Origin: Limnohabitans sp. Rim8
Lineage (GTDB): Bacteria; Pseudomonadota; Gammaproteobacteria; Burkholderiales; Burkholderiaceae_C
Assembly: GCA_945897465.1 (NCBI GenBank)
Contig: CAMDFK010000029.1
Coordinates: 1 to 32,328, forward strand
Length of the DNA stretch: 32,328 nt
Direction: 5' to 3'
Under the pieces are notes generated by a model that saw only the letters and a list, made by a program, of their open reading frames with translations, was not told the DNA's origin and ran no database searches. Numbering within the stretch: position 1 is the first letter of the stretch; the number at the start of each line of letters is the position of its first letter. Made by a program: the position numbers and the translations under genes. Below, in pieces: positions 4,078 to 23,545 of the stretch.

Positions 4078-4968
4078 TCAGAGCACCTCGGCCAGCATGC
4101 GGTTGACGCCCTGCTGCCAAGGCGGCAGCACGAGGCCAAAGGCTTCTTGCAGCTTGTGGGTGGCCAGGCGCGAATTGAGCGGGCGCTGCGCGGGTGTGGG
4201 GAAGGCCGAGGTGGGCACAGCGGCGATCTCGCCCACCTTCAGGGCCAGACCGGGCTGGGTGAGCCGGGCCTGCGCGATCACATGGCTGGCGTAGCCGTGC
4301 CAAGTGGTCTGGCCCGAGGCCACCAAGTGGTAGAGGCCGCCGAGCGCGGGCTGCATCAAAGTGGCACGGATGGCGTGCGCCGTGACGTCGGCGATCAGTT
4401 CGGCCCCGGTGGGTGCGCCGTGCTGGTCGTCAATGACGGTGAGGCGTTCGCGCTCGGCGGCCAGGCGCAGCATGGTTTTGGCAAAGTTACCACCCCGCGC
4501 GGCATAGACCCAGCTGGTGCGAAAAATCAGGTGCGCACAGCCGCTGGCCACGATGGCCTGCTCGCCTTCGAGTTTGGTCTGGCCGTACACACTGAGCGGC
4601 CCGGTGGCGCTGACCTCTTGCCATGGGCTTTGGCCTTGGCCGTTGAACACGTAGTCGGTGGAGTAATGCACCAGCAAAGCCCCGATTTGCGCGGCCGCCT
4701 GCGCCAGCGCGGCAGGCGCGGTGGCGTTGAGGCCGCGGGCCAGTTCGGGCTCGCTTTCGGCTTTGTCCACGGCAGTGTGCGCGGCGGCGTTCACAATGAC
4801 ATCGGGTTGAAAGGCCCACACCGTTTGCGCCAAGCGCTCGGGCTGGCTCAGGTCACCGCAAAAGTCGCTGCTGTGCCGGTCCAGCGCCAACACCTCGCCC
4901 AAAGGCGCCAGGCTGCGCTGCAGCTCCCAGCCGACTTGGCCGTTTTTACCCAAAAGAAGGATTTTCAA
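4078..4968 (-). CDS. rfbD: dTDP-4-dehydrorhamnose reductase
   Basis: Last enzyme of dTDP-L-rhamnose synthesis: NAD(P)H-dependent reduction of dTDP-4-keto-L-rhamnose, feeding O-antigen or other surface polysaccharide. The 296 residues form an extended short-chain dehydrogenase: nucleotide-binding GKNGQVG (7-13), the NAAAHTAVDKAE stretch (60-71), the active-site STDYVFNG (103-110) and the catalytic pair Y128/K132 in YGQTK. The start is TTG at 4968, with Shine-Dalgarno GGGAG at 4975-4979 (plus-strand numbering); no ATG nearby gives the conserved N-terminus MKILLLGKNGQVG. It lies downstream of rfbB, and the whole leader between them is a palindromic repeat array (4982-5094). The other two pathway genes (rfbA, rfbC) are not in the window. 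Confidence 0.95.
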   Translation of the reverse strand: MKILLLGKNGQVGWELQRSLAPLGEVLALDRHSSDFCGDLSQPERLAQTVWAFQPDVIVNAAAHTAVDKAESEPELARGLNATAPAALAQAAAQIGALLVHYSTDYVFNGQGQSPWQEVSATGPLSVYGQTKLEGEQAIVASGCAHLIFRTSWVYAARGGNFAKTMLRLAAERERLTVIDDQHGAPTGAELIADVTAHAIRATLMQPALGGLYHLVASGQTTWHGYASHVIAQARLTQPGLALKVGEIAAVPTSAFPTPAQRPLNSRLATHKLQEAFGLVLPPWQQGVNRMLAEVL

Positions 4969-4981
4969 AGAAAGCTCCCAA

Positions 4982-5094
4982 CGTCAAGGCGAGGCAAGAA
5001 GCGATCCATGGATTGCCGCGCTTCGCTCGCAATGACAGACTTTGGAGCCGCACTCGACGTACCATCGTCATCGCGAGGCACGAAGCGATCCATG
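4982..5094. repeat. Palindromic repeat array in the leader of rfbD
   Basis: A 55-bp imperfect palindrome (4982-5036) consists of one half-site of the form CGTCATCGCGAGGCACGAAG followed by GCGATCCATG (slightly degenerate here) and a second half-site of the form ATGGATTGCCGCGCTTCGCT then CGCAATGAC. After a 29-bp spacer a single first-type half-site follows (5066-5094). The outer arms (GTCATYGCGAG against its complement) and the centre (ATCCATGGAT) can pair. The same element occurs inside rfbB at 5825-5953. On the minus strand the array ends a few bases before the rfbD ribosome binding site, so its hairpin would sit in the rfbB-rfbD transcript. It looks like a dispersed, non-autonomous repeat; no transposase is nearby. 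Confidence 0.85.
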
Positions 5095-5124: not shown

Positions 5125-6318
5125 TCACGCATATTGCTTGTTCACCCACTCGCGGTAAGCGCCGCTTTGCACATGCTGCACCCACTCGGGATTGGCCAGG
5201 TACCACTCGACGGTTTTGCGGATGCCGGTCTCAAAGGTTTCGGCCGGCTTCCAGCCGAGCTCGGCTTCGAGTTTGCGGGCGTCGATGGCGTAGCGGCGGT
5301 CGTGGCCGGGGCGGTCGGTCACGTAGGTGATTTGGCTGGCGTAGCTCGTGCCGTCGGCTTTGGGGCGCATCTCGTCGAGCAACTTGCAGATGGTTTGCAC
5401 GATCTCGATGTTGGGCTTTTCGTTCCAGCCACCCACGTTGTAGACCTCGCCCAAGCGCCCGGCTTCGAGCACACGGCGAATCGCACTGCAGTGGTCTTTG
5501 ACGTAGAGCCAGTCGCGGATTTGCATGCCGTCGCCATACACCGGCAAAGGCTTGCCCGCCAAGGCGTTGACGATCATGAGCGGGATGAGTTTTTCGGGGA
5601 AGTGGTAAGGCCCGTAGTTGTTGCTGCAGTTGGTGGTGAGCACCGGCAGGCCATAGGTGTGGTGCCAGGCGCGGACCAGGTGGTCACTGGCGGCCTTGCT
5701 CGCGCTGTAGGGGCTGTTGGGCTCGTAGCGGTGGGTTTCGGTGAAGGCCGCATCGCCCTTGGCCAAGGAGCCGTAGACCTCGTCGGTGGAGACATGGAGG
5801 AAGCGGAAACCTTCTTGGGTCACCATGGATTGCCGCGCTTCGCTCGCAATGACAGCTGCACCGTCATCGCGAGGCACGAAGCGATCCAGGGATGGCCGCG
5901 CTTCGCTCGAAATGACATCTGCACCGTCATCGCGAGGCACGAAGCGATCCATAGCTTCTTGGGGCAGTTGGCGCCAATAGCCCCGCACCGCCTCGAGCAG
6001 GTTGAAGGTGCCCACGATGTTGGTCTGGATGAACTCGCCAGGGCCATGGATGGAGCGGTCCACATGGCTTTCGGCGGCGAAGTTGACCACCGCGCGCGGG
6101 CGGTGCTCGGCCAGCAGGCGGCTGACCAAGGCGCTGTCGCCAATGTCGCCTTGCACCAACTGGTGGCGAGCGTCGCCTTGCAGGCTGGCCAAGGTTTCGG
6201 GGTTGCCCGCGTAGGTCAGTTTGTCGAGGTTCACGACAGGCTCATCGCTGGCAGCCAGCCAGTCCAGCACGAAGTTGGCGCCAATAAAACCTGCGCCGCC
6301 GGTCACCAAAATGGTCAT
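5125..6318 (-). CDS. rfbB: dTDP-glucose 4,6-dehydratase carrying an in-frame palindromic repeat insertion
   Basis: NAD-dependent enzyme that makes dTDP-4-keto-6-deoxyglucose in the dTDP-rhamnose pathway. I start it at ATG 6318, since [16 protein letters not shown] is the family N-terminus; an upstream in-frame start at 6357 would only add 13 non-conserved residues. Motifs: GGAGFIG (7-13), the [12 protein letters not shown] stretch (about 79-90), the catalytic STDEVYG (177-183) and Y204/K208 in YSASK. The protein has 397 residues against about 350-360 for the family. The surplus is residues 123-165, two similar 21-residue units ([17 protein letters not shown]) encoded by the repeat array at 5825-5953. 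The insert falls between the helix ending LLEAVRGYW and the strand [13 protein letters not shown], a short surface loop in known relatives, so all catalytic motifs remain intact and the enzyme may still work. Confidence 0.95.
5811..5963. repeat. 9-bp direct repeats flanking the repeat insertion in rfbB
   Basis: CTTCTTGGG occurs at 5811-5819 and again at 5955-5963, exactly 144 bp apart, bracketing the palindromic array. On the coding strand both copies read CCCAAGAAG, encoding Pro-Gln-Glu or Thr-Gln-Glu. The spacing equals 48 codons, so insert plus one repeat copy is a whole number of codons. This is what a target-site duplication would look like. A chance match or microhomology cannot be excluded from this one site. 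Confidence 0.6.
5825..5953. repeat. Two 63-bp tandem units of the palindromic element inside rfbB
   Basis: Unit A (5828-5890) and unit B (5891-5953) differ at about five positions. Seen as half-sites the order is second, first+second, first, with 8-bp spacers AGCTGCAC and ATCTGCAC. The central 5862-5916 is a full 55-bp imperfect palindrome like that at 4982-5036. Read on the minus strand the array is open in the rfbB frame and adds 43 residues. The other two minus-strand frames are not used. The 63-bp period is divisible by three, so gain or loss of units keeps the frame. Confidence 0.92.
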
Positions 6319-19499: not shown

Positions 19500-22400
19500 A
19501 TGACCGACCTGTCCGCCGAATTCAAAGCTTTGGCCGAATACCGCCCGACCCACAAGGTCCGCTTTGTCACCGCAGCCAGCCTGTTTGACGGCCACGACGC
19601 CGCCATCAACATCATGCGCCGTATTTTGCAAAGCATGGGCGCCGAAGTCATCCACCTGGGCCACAACCGCTCGGTGGACGAGGTGGTGACGGCTGCGCTG
19701 CAAGAAGACGCCCAGGGCATCGCCATCAGCTCTTACCAAGGCGGGCACAACGAATATTTCAGCTACATGGTCGACCTGCTCAAAGCCCGTGGCGGCGAGC
19801 ACATCCAGGTCTTTGGCGGCGGCGGCGGCGTGATCGTGCCCGCCGAAATCCGCGCCCTGGCCCATAAAGGCGTGCGGATTTTCAGCCCCGAAGACGGCCA
19901 AAAAATGGGCCTGGCCGGGATGATCGGCGAGATGGTCATGCGCTGCGACCAGGATGTGAGCCACTTGGCCCCGAAAAGTGTGGAAGCCATCCAGGGCCAC
20001 AACGAGATGAACTGGCGTGCGCTGGCACAACTGATCACCGCCCTTGAGAACGGCCAAGCCGATGCGAAGTTGTTGGCGTCTGTCCGCGAACAAGCCGCGC
20101 AAAAGAAAGTGCCCGTGCTTGGTATCACCGGCACCGGTGGCGCCGGAAAGTCCTCGCTCACGGATGAATTGATCCGCCGCCTGCGTCTGGACCAGGGCGA
20201 CGCGCTGCGTGTGGCCGTGATCTCGATCGACCCCTCGCGCCGCAAGAGCGGTGGTGCGCTGCTGGGCGACCGCATCCGCATGAATGCGATCAGCCCCTGG
20301 TCACAAGGCCCCCGCGTGTTCATGCGCTCGCTGGCCACGCGTGACTTTGGCAGTGAAATTTCAGCCGCCCTGCCCGACGTGGTGGCGGCCTGCAAGGTGG
20401 CGGGCTTTGATGTGATCGTGGTCGAGACCTCGGGCATTGGCCAGGGCGACGCCGCCATCGTGCCGCATGTGGACGTGCCCATGTACGTGATGACACCCGA
20501 GTTTGGCGCAGCCAGCCAGCTCGAAAAGATTGACATGCTGGACTTTGCAGAGTTTGTCGCCATCAACAAGTTCGACCGCAAAGGCGCGTCGGATGCCCTG
20601 CGCGATGTGGCCAAGCAGGTGCAACGCAACAAGGAAGCCTGGACCGTGCCGACCGAGCAGATGCCGGTGTTTGGCACCATGGCCGCCCGCTTCAACGACG
20701 ACGGCGTGACGGCGCTCTACCAAGCGCTCAAAGCCCGCCTGGCCGAGCTGGGCATGAACACCACTGAAGGCCGCTTGCCGGTGGTCAAGGTGCGCTACAG
20801 CACCCACCAAAACCCGGTGGTGCCGTCTTCCCGCACCCGTTATCTGGCCGAGATCAGCGACACGGTGCGCGGCTACAAAAAGCGCGCCATTGACCAGTCT
20901 CGCCTGGCCCGCGAAATCCAACAACTGCGTGCCGCGGCCCGCATGCTCGAAGTGGGCAAGTCCGGCCGCGCCAAAGCCGCCGAAGCCGCGATTGACCTGG
21001 CCGTGAACCGCGAGCAAACCCAAGACCCCACCGCCCGCAAACTGTTGGCCCAGTGGCCTGACATGCAAAAAGCCTACGCGGGCGACGAGTACGTGGTGAA
21101 AATCCGCGACAAAGAGATTCGCACGGCGTTGACCACCCAGAGTCTGAGCGGCACCACCATCCGCAAGGTGGCCCTGCCGCAGTACGAAGACCACGGCGAA
21201 ATCCTCAAGTGGTTGATGCTGGACAATGTGCCGGGCAGCTACCCCTACACCGCAGGCACTTTTGCTTTCAAACGCGAGGGCGAAGACCCGACCCGCATGT
21301 TCGCCGGCGAAGGCGATCCTTTCCGCACCAACCGCCGTTTCAAATTGGTCAGCGAAGGCTTGCCCGCCAAGCGCTTGTCCACGGCGTTTGACTCGGTCAC
21401 GCTGTACGGCAACGACCCCGATCTGCGTCCGGACATCTACGGCAAGATCGGCAACTCGGGCGTGAACGTGGCCACGCTCGACGACATGAAGGTGCTGTAC
21501 TCAGGCTTTGACCTGTGCAACCCGACCACCTCGGTGTCCATGACCATCAACGGCCCCGCGCCCTCCATCCTGGCCATGTTCATGAACACGGCCATTGACC
21601 AAAATCTCGACAAGTTCAAGGCCGAGAATGGCCGCGAGCCCACCGAAACCGAAGCCGCGAAGGTCCGCGAATGGGTGCTGCAGAATGTGCGCGGCACGGT
21701 GCAGGCTGACATTCTGAAAGAAGACCAAGGCCAGAACACCTGCATCTTCTCCACCGAGTTTTCGCTCAAAGTGATGGGCGACGTGGCGCAGTATTTTGTA
21801 CACCATGATGTGCGCAACTTCTACTCGGTGTCCATCAGCGGCTACCACATCGCCGAAGCCGGGGCCAACCCGATCAGCCAGTTGGCCTTCACGCTGTCCA
21901 ACGGCTTCACCTTTGTGGAAGCGTATCTGGCGCGTGGCATGCACATCGACGACTTTGCACCGAATTTGTCGTTCTTCTTCAGCAACGGCATGGACCCCGA
22001 GTACACCGTCATGGGTCGTGTGGCCCGCCGCATCTGGGCGGTGGCCATGAAAGAGAAATACGGCGCGAACGAACGCAGCCAAAAGCTCAAGTACCACATC
22101 CAAACCAGTGGTCGCTCGCTGCACGCCCAAGAGATCCAGTTCAACGACATCCGCACCACACTGCAAGCGCTGATCGCGATCTACGACAACTGCAACAGCC
22201 TGCACACCAACGCGTTTGACGAAGCCATCACCACGCCCACCGAAGACTCGGTGCGCCGCGCCATGGCGATCCAGCTGATCATCAACCGCGAGTGGGGCCT
22301 GGCCAAAAACGAGAACCCCAACCAAGGCGCTTTCATCATCGACGAGCTCACCGAACTGGTGGAAGAGACCGTGCTGGCCGAATTCGAGAAGATCGCCGAG

Positions 22401-22790
22401 CGTGGTGGTGTATTGGGCGCGATGGAAACCGGCTACCAACGCGGCAAGATCCAAGACGAATCGATGCACTATGAGATGCTCAAGCACACCGGCGAGCTGC
22501 CCATCATCGGCGTCAACACCTTCCGCAACCCCAAGGGCAATGAAGTGCTCGAAAGCCTGGAGTTGGCCCGCTCGACCGAGGAAGAAAAGCAGTCGCAACT
22601 CCAGCGCCTGCACGACTTTCACACCCAACACGCCGCCGAATCGCCCGCCATGCTCCAACGCCTGCAACAAGCCGTGATCGACAACGGCAACGTGTTCGAG
22701 GTGCTGATGGACGCGGTGCGGGTCTGCTCTTTGGGCCAGATCACCAATGCGCTGTTTGAGGTGGGTGGTCAGTACCGACGCAATATGTGA
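19500..22790 (+). CDS. icmF: Fused isobutyryl-CoA mutase (adenosylcobalamin-dependent, with built-in G-protein chaperone)
   Basis: Interconverts isobutyryl-CoA and n-butyryl-CoA, linking valine-derived and straight-chain acyl-CoA metabolism. The 1096 residues have the IcmF order: N-terminal B12-binding domain (about 18-150, cobalt-ligand histidine H32 in [11 protein letters not shown]), MeaB-like GTPase domain (Walker A GTGGAGKS at 211-218, NKFD at 356-359), then the large mutase TIM-barrel domain from about 540. The fusion itself separates it from methylmalonyl-CoA mutase. In the motif aligned to methylmalonyl-CoA mutase RGPYATMY there is Phe (F588, TAGTF), and where that enzyme has Arg in VRNTY there is Gln (Q745, GQNTC). 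Phe/Gln is the pair known for isobutyryl-CoA specificity. ATG 19500 gives the usual family length. A likely promoter and operator lie just upstream. Confidence 0.97.
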
Positions 22791-22821: not shown

Positions 22822-22857
22822 AAATGGTCTGTACATCCGCGTATGTACAGACCATTT
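22822..22857. repeat. Perfect 15-bp inverted repeat upstream of vapBC
   Basis: AAATGGTCTGTACAT (22822-22836) and ATGTACAGACCATTT (22843-22857) are exact inverted copies around a six-base centre, CCGCGT. The inner part, TGTACAT/ATGTACA, recurs in the smaller palindrome at 22871-22884. It also follows the icmF stop by 31 bp and could act as a terminator hairpin, but no T-run follows. I favour an operator bound by the VapB/VapBC complex. Confidence 0.75.
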
Positions 22858-22884
22858 CATTCTTGTTAAGATGTACACGTACAT
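22844..22884 (+). promoter_or_regulatory. Likely vapBC promoter with a second operator palindrome
   Basis: TGTACA (22844-22849) and TAAGAT (22867-22872), 17 bp apart, form a plausible promoter that leaves room for the ribosome binding site CAGGAGC before vapB. The -35 lies in the right arm of the large inverted repeat. The -10 overlaps the palindrome ATGTAC-AC-GTACAT (22871-22884). A protein bound to these sites would cover the promoter, which fits the self-repression usual for vapBC operons. Confidence 0.55.
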
Positions 22885-22901
22885 CCATTATCAGGAGCGA
22901 T

Positions 22902-23138
22902 ATGGCCAACACCAAACTCTTCAAGAACGGCAATTCCCAAGCCGTTCGCATTCCGGCCGAGCTGGCTTACGGCAGCTGGGACATCGATCTGGACATCGAA
23001 CGCATCGGCGATGAATTGCGCATTCGCCCTGCCCGCAAACGCATGGGTGATGTGATGGGCAAGCTGGCCCAGTTTTCTCCGGGTTTCATGTCCGAGGGGC
23101 GTGGTCTCAACACCCAAGGCGAGCGCGAGGCCTTATGA
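22902..23138 (+). CDS. vapB: Antitoxin VapB (AbrB/MazE-type DNA-binding)
   Basis: Antitoxin of a type II toxin-antitoxin pair, 78 residues. The N-terminal swapped-hairpin motif KLFKNGNSQAVRIPAEL (5-21) is the VapB/AbrB DNA-binding fold. The C-terminal part (about 45-78) would wrap the toxin. It is expected to neutralise the nuclease VapC and, with it, bind the operator upstream. ATG 22902 follows a CAGGAGC ribosome binding site; the open frame upstream covers the operator and is not used. The stop overlaps the vapC start by four bases (ATGA). The pair is inserted between icmF and the BKACE gene with no link to either. Confidence 0.92.
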   Translation: MANTKLFKNGNSQAVRIPAELAYGSWDIDLDIERIGDELRIRPARKRMGDVMGKLAQFSPGFMSEGRGLNTQGEREAL

Positions 23139-23545
23139 AACCCAAGTACATGCTGGACACCAACATCTGCATTTACTTGATGAAGCACCAGCCACCGCAA
23201 GTGCAAGCGCGATTTTCCGAATGTTTTGTGGGTGATGTGGTGATGTCGGCCATCACGCTGGCCGAGCTGGAATATGGCGTGGCCTGCTCTGGGGATGCGC
23301 AGGCCCACAACCAGGCCTTGCTGAGTAGCCTGCTCGAGGATATTCCAGCCGCCCCTTTTGAGGGCCGAGCCGCACGCATTTATGGGCCGCTGCGCGCTTC
23401 TCACAAAGAACGTCAAAAAGACGCGCTCGACAAACTGATCGCCGCGCACGCCCTGTCATTAGGGGTGACTCTGGTCACCAACAACGAGGCCGACTTTCGG
23501 GAATTTAACGGCCTTCGCATCGAAAACTGGGTCAACGCGCACTGA
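23135..23545 (+). CDS. vapC: Toxin VapC (PIN-domain ribonuclease)
   Basis: PIN-domain endoribonuclease of 136 residues; VapC toxins typically cut tRNA or rRNA when released from VapB. The acidic metal-binding residues are in place: D8 (MLDTN), E44 (TLAELEYG) and D99 (DKLIAAHAL), followed by the TNN motif at 115-117 near the C-terminus. It is therefore predicted to be active. The start overlaps the vapB stop. Its stop lies only three bases from the stop of the convergent BKACE gene, with no room for a terminator. RNA target unknown. Confidence 0.93.
   Translation: MKPKYMLDTNICIYLMKHQPPQVQARFSECFVGDVVMSAITLAELEYGVACSGDAQAHNQALLSSLLEDIPAAPFEGRAARIYGPLRASHKERQKDALDKLIAAHALSLGVTLVTNNEADFREFNGLRIENWVNAH

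Follow-up and report, generated by a model that had tools for sequence, protein, structure and literature searches.

Our analysis of a window of 32,328 nucleotides from Limnohabitans sp. Rim8 raises the question of how a palindromic repeat comes to lie in frame within the gene of a sugar-nucleotide enzyme, and whether the peptide that it would encode has any role there. The gene, rfbB (or rmlB), lies on the reverse strand (5128..6318) and encodes a dTDP-glucose 4,6-dehydratase of 397 amino acids, insert included. This assignment is based on the list of open reading frames (ORFs), a Pfam match (GDP_Man_Dehyd, 2.7e-92) and a structure match, the nearest solved structure being RmlB of S. enterica. 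The sequence-only reading had reported 43 extra residues (123-165) derived from two 63-bp repeats, and the repeat search and the alignment confirmed them. Its coordinates (5825-5953) pointed to the correct insert but were one base off, as the 43 codons occupy positions 5824..5952 of the reverse strand. The insert consists of two 21-residue units plus one residue. The two palindromic 63-bp units (repeat family D2) are 94% identical: the first on the forward strand (unit 2 in the protein) is found at 5823..5885, and the second (unit 1 in the protein), a frame-keeping tandem copy, at 5886..5948. Bases resembling CCCAAGAAG flank the insert on both sides, as judged by eye and with no true empty site for comparison, and are at most a candidate for the target-site duplication that, with terminal inverted repeats and a cognate transposase, marks a MITE. 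The ORF directly downstream of rfbB (4078..4968, reverse strand, from the ORF list) is a putative rfbD. Elsewhere in the window, two adjacent forward-strand ORFs (22824-23545) read by eye like a VapB/VapC toxin-antitoxin pair, and a 1,096-residue ORF (19500-22790) reads, also by eye, like a cobalamin-dependent acyl-CoA mutase fused to its GTPase.

The insert is not a regular part of the enzyme family. Residues 123-165 are absent from the three solved RmlB relatives in the displayed alignment and from 28 of the 30 rows of the first alignment, where the remaining rows are the window protein and that of genome G028, which has one unit; seven of the 28 rows have other extra residues at this position. 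The search of 90 genomes of Limnohabitans, a genus of freshwater bacteria, gave 87 readable RmlB copies in 82 genomes and none in eight. The spacing between the GTF motif and STDEVYG is 29 to 30 residues, i.e., without any insert, in 64 of the 87 copies, and the window element is found in four, three of which have a single unit. Most relatives thus lack the 43 residues, and a place for them in the enzyme family was discarded given the solved structures and these 64 empty copies. In the AlphaFold2 model, the pLDDT falls below 50 at residues 122-163, between a helix (88-116) and a strand (172-178), and the remainder folds as RmlB. The insert peptide is accordingly predicted to be disordered. This model agrees with the earlier placement of the insert in a loop between helix and strand, and the catalytic STDEVYG and YSASK stretches are intact. 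A second RmlB match was not found in the window genome at an E value of 1e-80, so the insert-bearing RmlB is probably the only one of this genome (a 99.5% complete draft).

Pattern searches resolved each 63-bp unit, equivalent to 21 codons, into a beta half-site (26 nt), a 9-bp linker and an alpha half-site (28 nt, starting with GTC and ending with CCA). These form a head-to-head dimer, and both units of rfbB have this orientation. Within the insert, alpha half-sites on the reverse strand (5826..5853 with no mismatch, 5889..5916 with three) alternate with beta half-sites on the forward strand (5863..5888 and 5926..5951, both with no mismatch). The same element had been reported from non-coding DNA at 4982-5094, and we indeed found half-sites spanning 4983-5092 in the intergenic stretch downstream of rfbB: a forward beta (4983..5008, three mismatches), a reverse alpha (5009..5036, no mismatch) and a forward beta (5067..5092, no mismatch). 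Sites of this kind also lie just downstream of rfbB in G028. With up to three mismatches, the window genome has 78 alpha and 45 beta half-sites, against none with reversed control patterns. This copy number is far above chance and bears out the idea of a dispersed palindromic repeat.

The copies read in detail (77 of the 78 alpha and 44 of the 45 beta; one of each was absent from the stretches examined) share the marks of CGTC REPs. The CGTC or TGTC tag is found in 72 of the 77 alpha and 42 of the 44 beta copies and the consensus tail is CCA, these scores being biased upward because tag and tail bases are part of the patterns used to retrieve the copies. The alpha stem has 5 bp, an internal loop and 3 bp; the beta stem has 5 bp and a 10-nt loop. 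The first stem pair is A-T in all 77 alpha and in 41 of the 44 beta copies, and the second is T-A in 67 and 42, respectively. The third alpha pair is T-A in 48 copies, C-G in 14, G-C in 10 and broken in 5. Both sides have thus changed in 24 of the 77 copies and pairing is lost in 5: the stem changes of the alpha copies are compensated. As to the machinery that might insert the element, movement by a repeat-flanked tyrosine transposase is unsupported. Both Y1_Tnp genes found in the window genome have their own 26-bp inverted repeats, no alpha or beta site was found within the 3.3 kb around each of them (up to six mismatches), and the search of this genome thus gave no Y1_Tnp transposase that goes with the element. 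The two genes (L237 and L238, on contigs C17 and C1 of the same genome) each lie between two 26-bp arms of perfect complementarity (TTTAATTGGGGTCAGATCCCAATTAA), a TIR-type arrangement unrelated to the CGTC repeat.

The count of the element inside reading frames showed that rfbB is one of several such genes. Among the 78 repeat clusters of the window genome, 15 sit within ORFs of 12 Pfam-supported genes, and the reading frame is open through the repeat in all 12. They encode SelO, DUF1365, a pyridine nucleotide oxidoreductase, RecC, UvrD, an alpha/beta hydrolase, RmlB, a CP_ATPgrasp/Alpha-E protein (repeat between domains), a NuoF-like protein (repeat in the C-terminal tail), a 2-oxoacid dehydrogenase E2 (repeat between lipoyl domains), UvrA (four clusters) and a radical SAM protein of the YgiQ type. 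The census took closed ORFs with a margin of 60 bases at either side and tested 32 proteins; the other spanning ORFs were mostly shorter than 160 amino acids, plus three of 196-264 that overlap tested genes. Left out of the count was an Fe-ADH whose repeat (residues 34-74) may precede the real start. Absence in relatives was compared for RmlB and SelO, and the latter has repeats in the same loop in 3 of the 30 genomes viewed, out of 84 with a match. The UvrA-like ORF, of 2,156 amino acids (L132 803-7270, contig C14 of the same genome), has more degenerate repeat-coded stretches adjoining some of its four in-frame clusters.

The RmlB loop itself is filled in a minority of the Limnohabitans copies, and by different elements. 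We found at least eight extra residues at this place in 23 of the 87 copies, from 22 genomes (for G023 and G029, where the script matched a later GTL, the loops were taken from the alignments). Sorted by eye, the occupants fall into five classes, i.e., the loop holds at least five kinds of palindromic repeats within the genus. Type A, the CGTC alpha/beta element of the window, is present in four copies: the window genome (G000) with two tandem units, and G028, G089 and G068 with one unit each. Type B (two copies, G063 and G105) is a CGTC element with a GGATCCTCGGG..GATGAC palindrome, and type C (one copy, G072) a CGTC element with ATGGATCCCCGCG..GATGAC. Type D (11 copies from 10 genomes) is GTAG-like and heterogeneous, and type E (five copies) is a long GTGGGAGCGGTCTCTGACCGCGA inverted repeat. 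Three members of type D are weakly assigned as REPs, since the inserts of G022 and G104 are short and have few similar sites genome-wide (3 and 1), and that of G102 is degenerate. Two of the 23 copies are not full ORFs, one at a contig end (G101) and the other with a short N terminus (G063). In the latter case (L046, contig C1), the gene with the type B insert gives an ORF of 314 amino acids and an insert-free second copy is found elsewhere in the genome; it is possibly a decaying duplicate. The loop also tolerates microsatellite growth: one RmlB (L047; G081, contig C92) has a short tandem LSELSELSELS, encoded by CTTTCGGAA-like units, beside a GTAG-like insert. No insert of at least eight residues was found in the 76 relatives not recognised as members of the genus, the largest having five residues; these were the best 80 named relatives among those listed, minus four (L157, L160, L163 and L170) that were set aside as genus contigs, and the 76 may include further, unnamed members of the genus.

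Hosts tend to be rich in the kind of repeat that fills their loop. In the four type A hosts, alpha sites number 78, 108, 95 and 60, rfbB copies included, which places these hosts in the top five of the 90 genomes (Mann-Whitney test over 82 genomes, P = 1e-4, uncorrected for relatedness). The type D hosts are also repeat-rich (P = 1e-4, likewise uncorrected). The five type E hosts have 35, 32, 6, 9 and 17 sites matching the type E pattern, although two of the 6 and of the 9 sites, in G086 and G080, are the rfbB copy itself. For types B and C, a generic CGTC pattern gave 33 sites in G063, 4 in G105 and 23 in G072. Siblings of type B are scarce, with one close site in G063 besides the rfbB copy and none among the four of G105, and G072 has several siblings of type C. 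Repeat abundance does not force insertion, as loops are empty in G026 (114 alpha sites), G025 (143 GTAG-like sites) and G071 (116 GTAG-like sites). G026, the genome with the most alpha copies, has them in repeat arrays with regular spacing of about 58 bp or 160-230 bp (C33:14536-14852, and also C4, C5 and C37).

The presence of several unrelated palindromic repeats at the same place in related species makes the RmlB loop look like a recurrent landing site. The reading that we favor, with fairly good confidence, is that selfish in-frame REPs are tolerated passengers in a permissive loop of RmlB, where they land recurrently and from which variants are apparently exchanged between species. The insert is a head-to-head dimer of a CGTC-tagged REP, in frame in the loop, which stands twice in tandem in the window genome, its 63 bp keeping the frame. 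Its translation would yield a disordered peptide and leave the RmlB fold unchanged, and what selection maintains would be the enzyme and an uninterrupted frame rather than the peptide sequence. Within Limnohabitans, the occupant of the landing site would often be of a kind plentiful in the host genome, and the loop variants would then be exchanged between species as stretches of about 100 bp. The in-frame copies in 12 Pfam-supported genes of the window genome, and those in the SelO loop, speak for tolerance in general. The pattern of selection is consistent with a passenger. Purifying selection acts on the rfbB gene body, whose dN/dS is 0.02-0.10 in 12 pairs, insert-bearing genes included, and is not visible in the insert. 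Between the two window units there are no synonymous and four non-synonymous changes, and unit 1 differs from the unit of G028 by one and two, respectively.

The history of the insert was assessed on an rfbB gene tree built without the loop, from which G101 and G111 were excluded because of their length. Presence or absence of an insert requires at least 17 changes, at least 12 of them forced by starred branches. Shuffled labels required 19.7 changes on average, and because 35 of the 500 shuffles were as low as observed, the trait is close to scattered, only slightly clustered. Type A shows 4 changes for its 4 members, which leaves plain vertical descent of this type unsupported. Comparisons of loops with their flanks suggest that exchange lies behind some of this scatter. 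Between G028 and G089, 3 of 102 loop bases differ, against 30 of 180 flanking bases, and G068 shares 72 identical bases with G004 up to the loop, after which the loops are unrelated. Judging from these sequences, the segments that species exchange appear to be short, about 100 bp. The loop must have received at least five element types, and exchange, loss and replacement can mimic further gains. A bolder version, in which REP cassettes repeatedly reach the loop by insertion and very short interspecies recombination and thereby diversify a core enzyme, possibly affecting rfb expression or surface sugar, can be offered only tentatively. The main rival on history is a single ancient insertion, basal to the clade, with many later replacements, decays or losses and no recurrent landing. 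Flank residues common to several types could speak for it (LPQE-like before and TQxxF-like after the insert in types A-C, APTxxxF-like in types D-E). We regard it as unlikely, since the palindromes differ from type to type, most genomes with type A, D or E have multiple copies of it, and empty loops are the rule and adjoin filled ones on the gene tree.

On function, the main rival to a tolerated passenger is a role at the RNA level, whereby the dimer hairpin in the rfbB message would tune decay or elongation and the peptide would be a by-product. One window unit and one type E insert have strong predicted folds (-35.2 and -51.9 kcal/mol, respectively), and REP sites recur just downstream of the gene, as described above. 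Moreover, the insert varies less between species than do the synonymous sites of the gene body, a likeness that could result from constraint on DNA or RNA but is accounted for equally well by exchange. The fold of a type D insert is weak (-6.4 kcal/mol), the element type varies by species and 64 of the 87 copies do without any insert, all of which make such a role quite improbable.

Recruitment of the peptide, e.g., for oligomerisation or partner binding, seems very unlikely. The seven CGTC inserts (types A, B and C) do share one orientation and frame and encode hydrophilic, charged peptides (e.g., DPRVRGDD); yet only four to five of the six frames are open through these elements, which limits both where they can survive and the choice of frame. 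The predicted disorder and the unrelated peptides that fill the loop in other species also argue against recruitment, as do the type A units, in which non-synonymous differences equal or exceed synonymous ones in 10 of 10 comparisons, with about equal rates per site (the numbers are small). Finally, repeats can collapse or chimerise and the window genome is a draft of 48 contigs, but G028, G089 and G068 have the element at the same place with their own variants and an open frame, which rules out an assembly or sequencing artefact for it. The chance of an artefact is negligible and concerns the exact count of two units, which comes from one draft assembly.

These loops add to the scattered single cases of protein-coding palindromes a natural replicate series within one genus, in which a single loop of a single enzyme has at least five kinds of repeat and 64 copies are insert-free. 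Such a series makes it testable whether translated selfish repeats do something or are merely tolerated, and the RmlB loop may be where CGTC REPs can be observed as they move. In-frame insertion of REPs is itself of a published kind; what is new is the repeated filling of one enzyme loop by different repeats in a single genus.

The sequence-only reading had regarded translated palindromes as otherwise a phenomenon of Rickettsia, unusual in a betaproteobacterium. Thauera is a betaproteobacterium too. This view overstated the novelty, since the literature already has in-frame REPs from unrelated genes: the consulted portions of Di Nocera et al. (2013; PMC3733652) describe GTAG and CGTC REPs within genes of several species, Thauera included. 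According to the same portions, genes for uvrA, uvrD and recBCD are among the REP carriers, different REPs lie at about the same site of recB in X. campestris and X. oryzae, and no dedicated transposase was found for CGTC REPs. We found in them no description of one enzyme loop occupied by several REP families, and the open-licence literature, taken without the supplementary intragenic list of PMC3733652, gave no report of REPs in rfbB or in Limnohabitans.

As far as the consulted text of PMC3733652 allows comparison, the window element resembles the CGTC superfamily in its CGTC/TGTC tag (TGTC and CCTC being allowed), its AT-rich stem base and its CCA tail. The head-to-head dimer in rfbB, the many dispersed copies, some of them in frame within genes, and the lack of a linked tyrosine transposase are further likenesses. 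It differs from CGTC families 1-4, which have stems of 8-9 bp and loops of 4-5 nt, in its alpha stem of 5 + 3 bp and its beta stem of 5 bp with a 10-nt loop. Since these sizes do not fit, the element is a putative member of the superfamily by its tag only and of none of the four families. The GTAG REPs and TIR elements of that paper, as described there in part, resemble by eye and by pattern the types D and E of other Limnohabitans rfbB genes and are not of the kind of the window insert. The Rickettsia palindromic elements (RPEs; Ogata et al. 2000, 2002, as cited in the parts consulted of PMC3733652 and PMC10969869) are found in frame in many unrelated genes, measure about 150 bp and form ten families (PMC10969869), and the former paper equates RPE-6 and RPE-4 of R. 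conorii with CGTC-1 and CGTC-4 repeats. On these partial descriptions, the window element is like them a palindromic repeat with frames open through many unrelated genes, and is set apart by size, as a 63-bp dimer in a betaproteobacterium.
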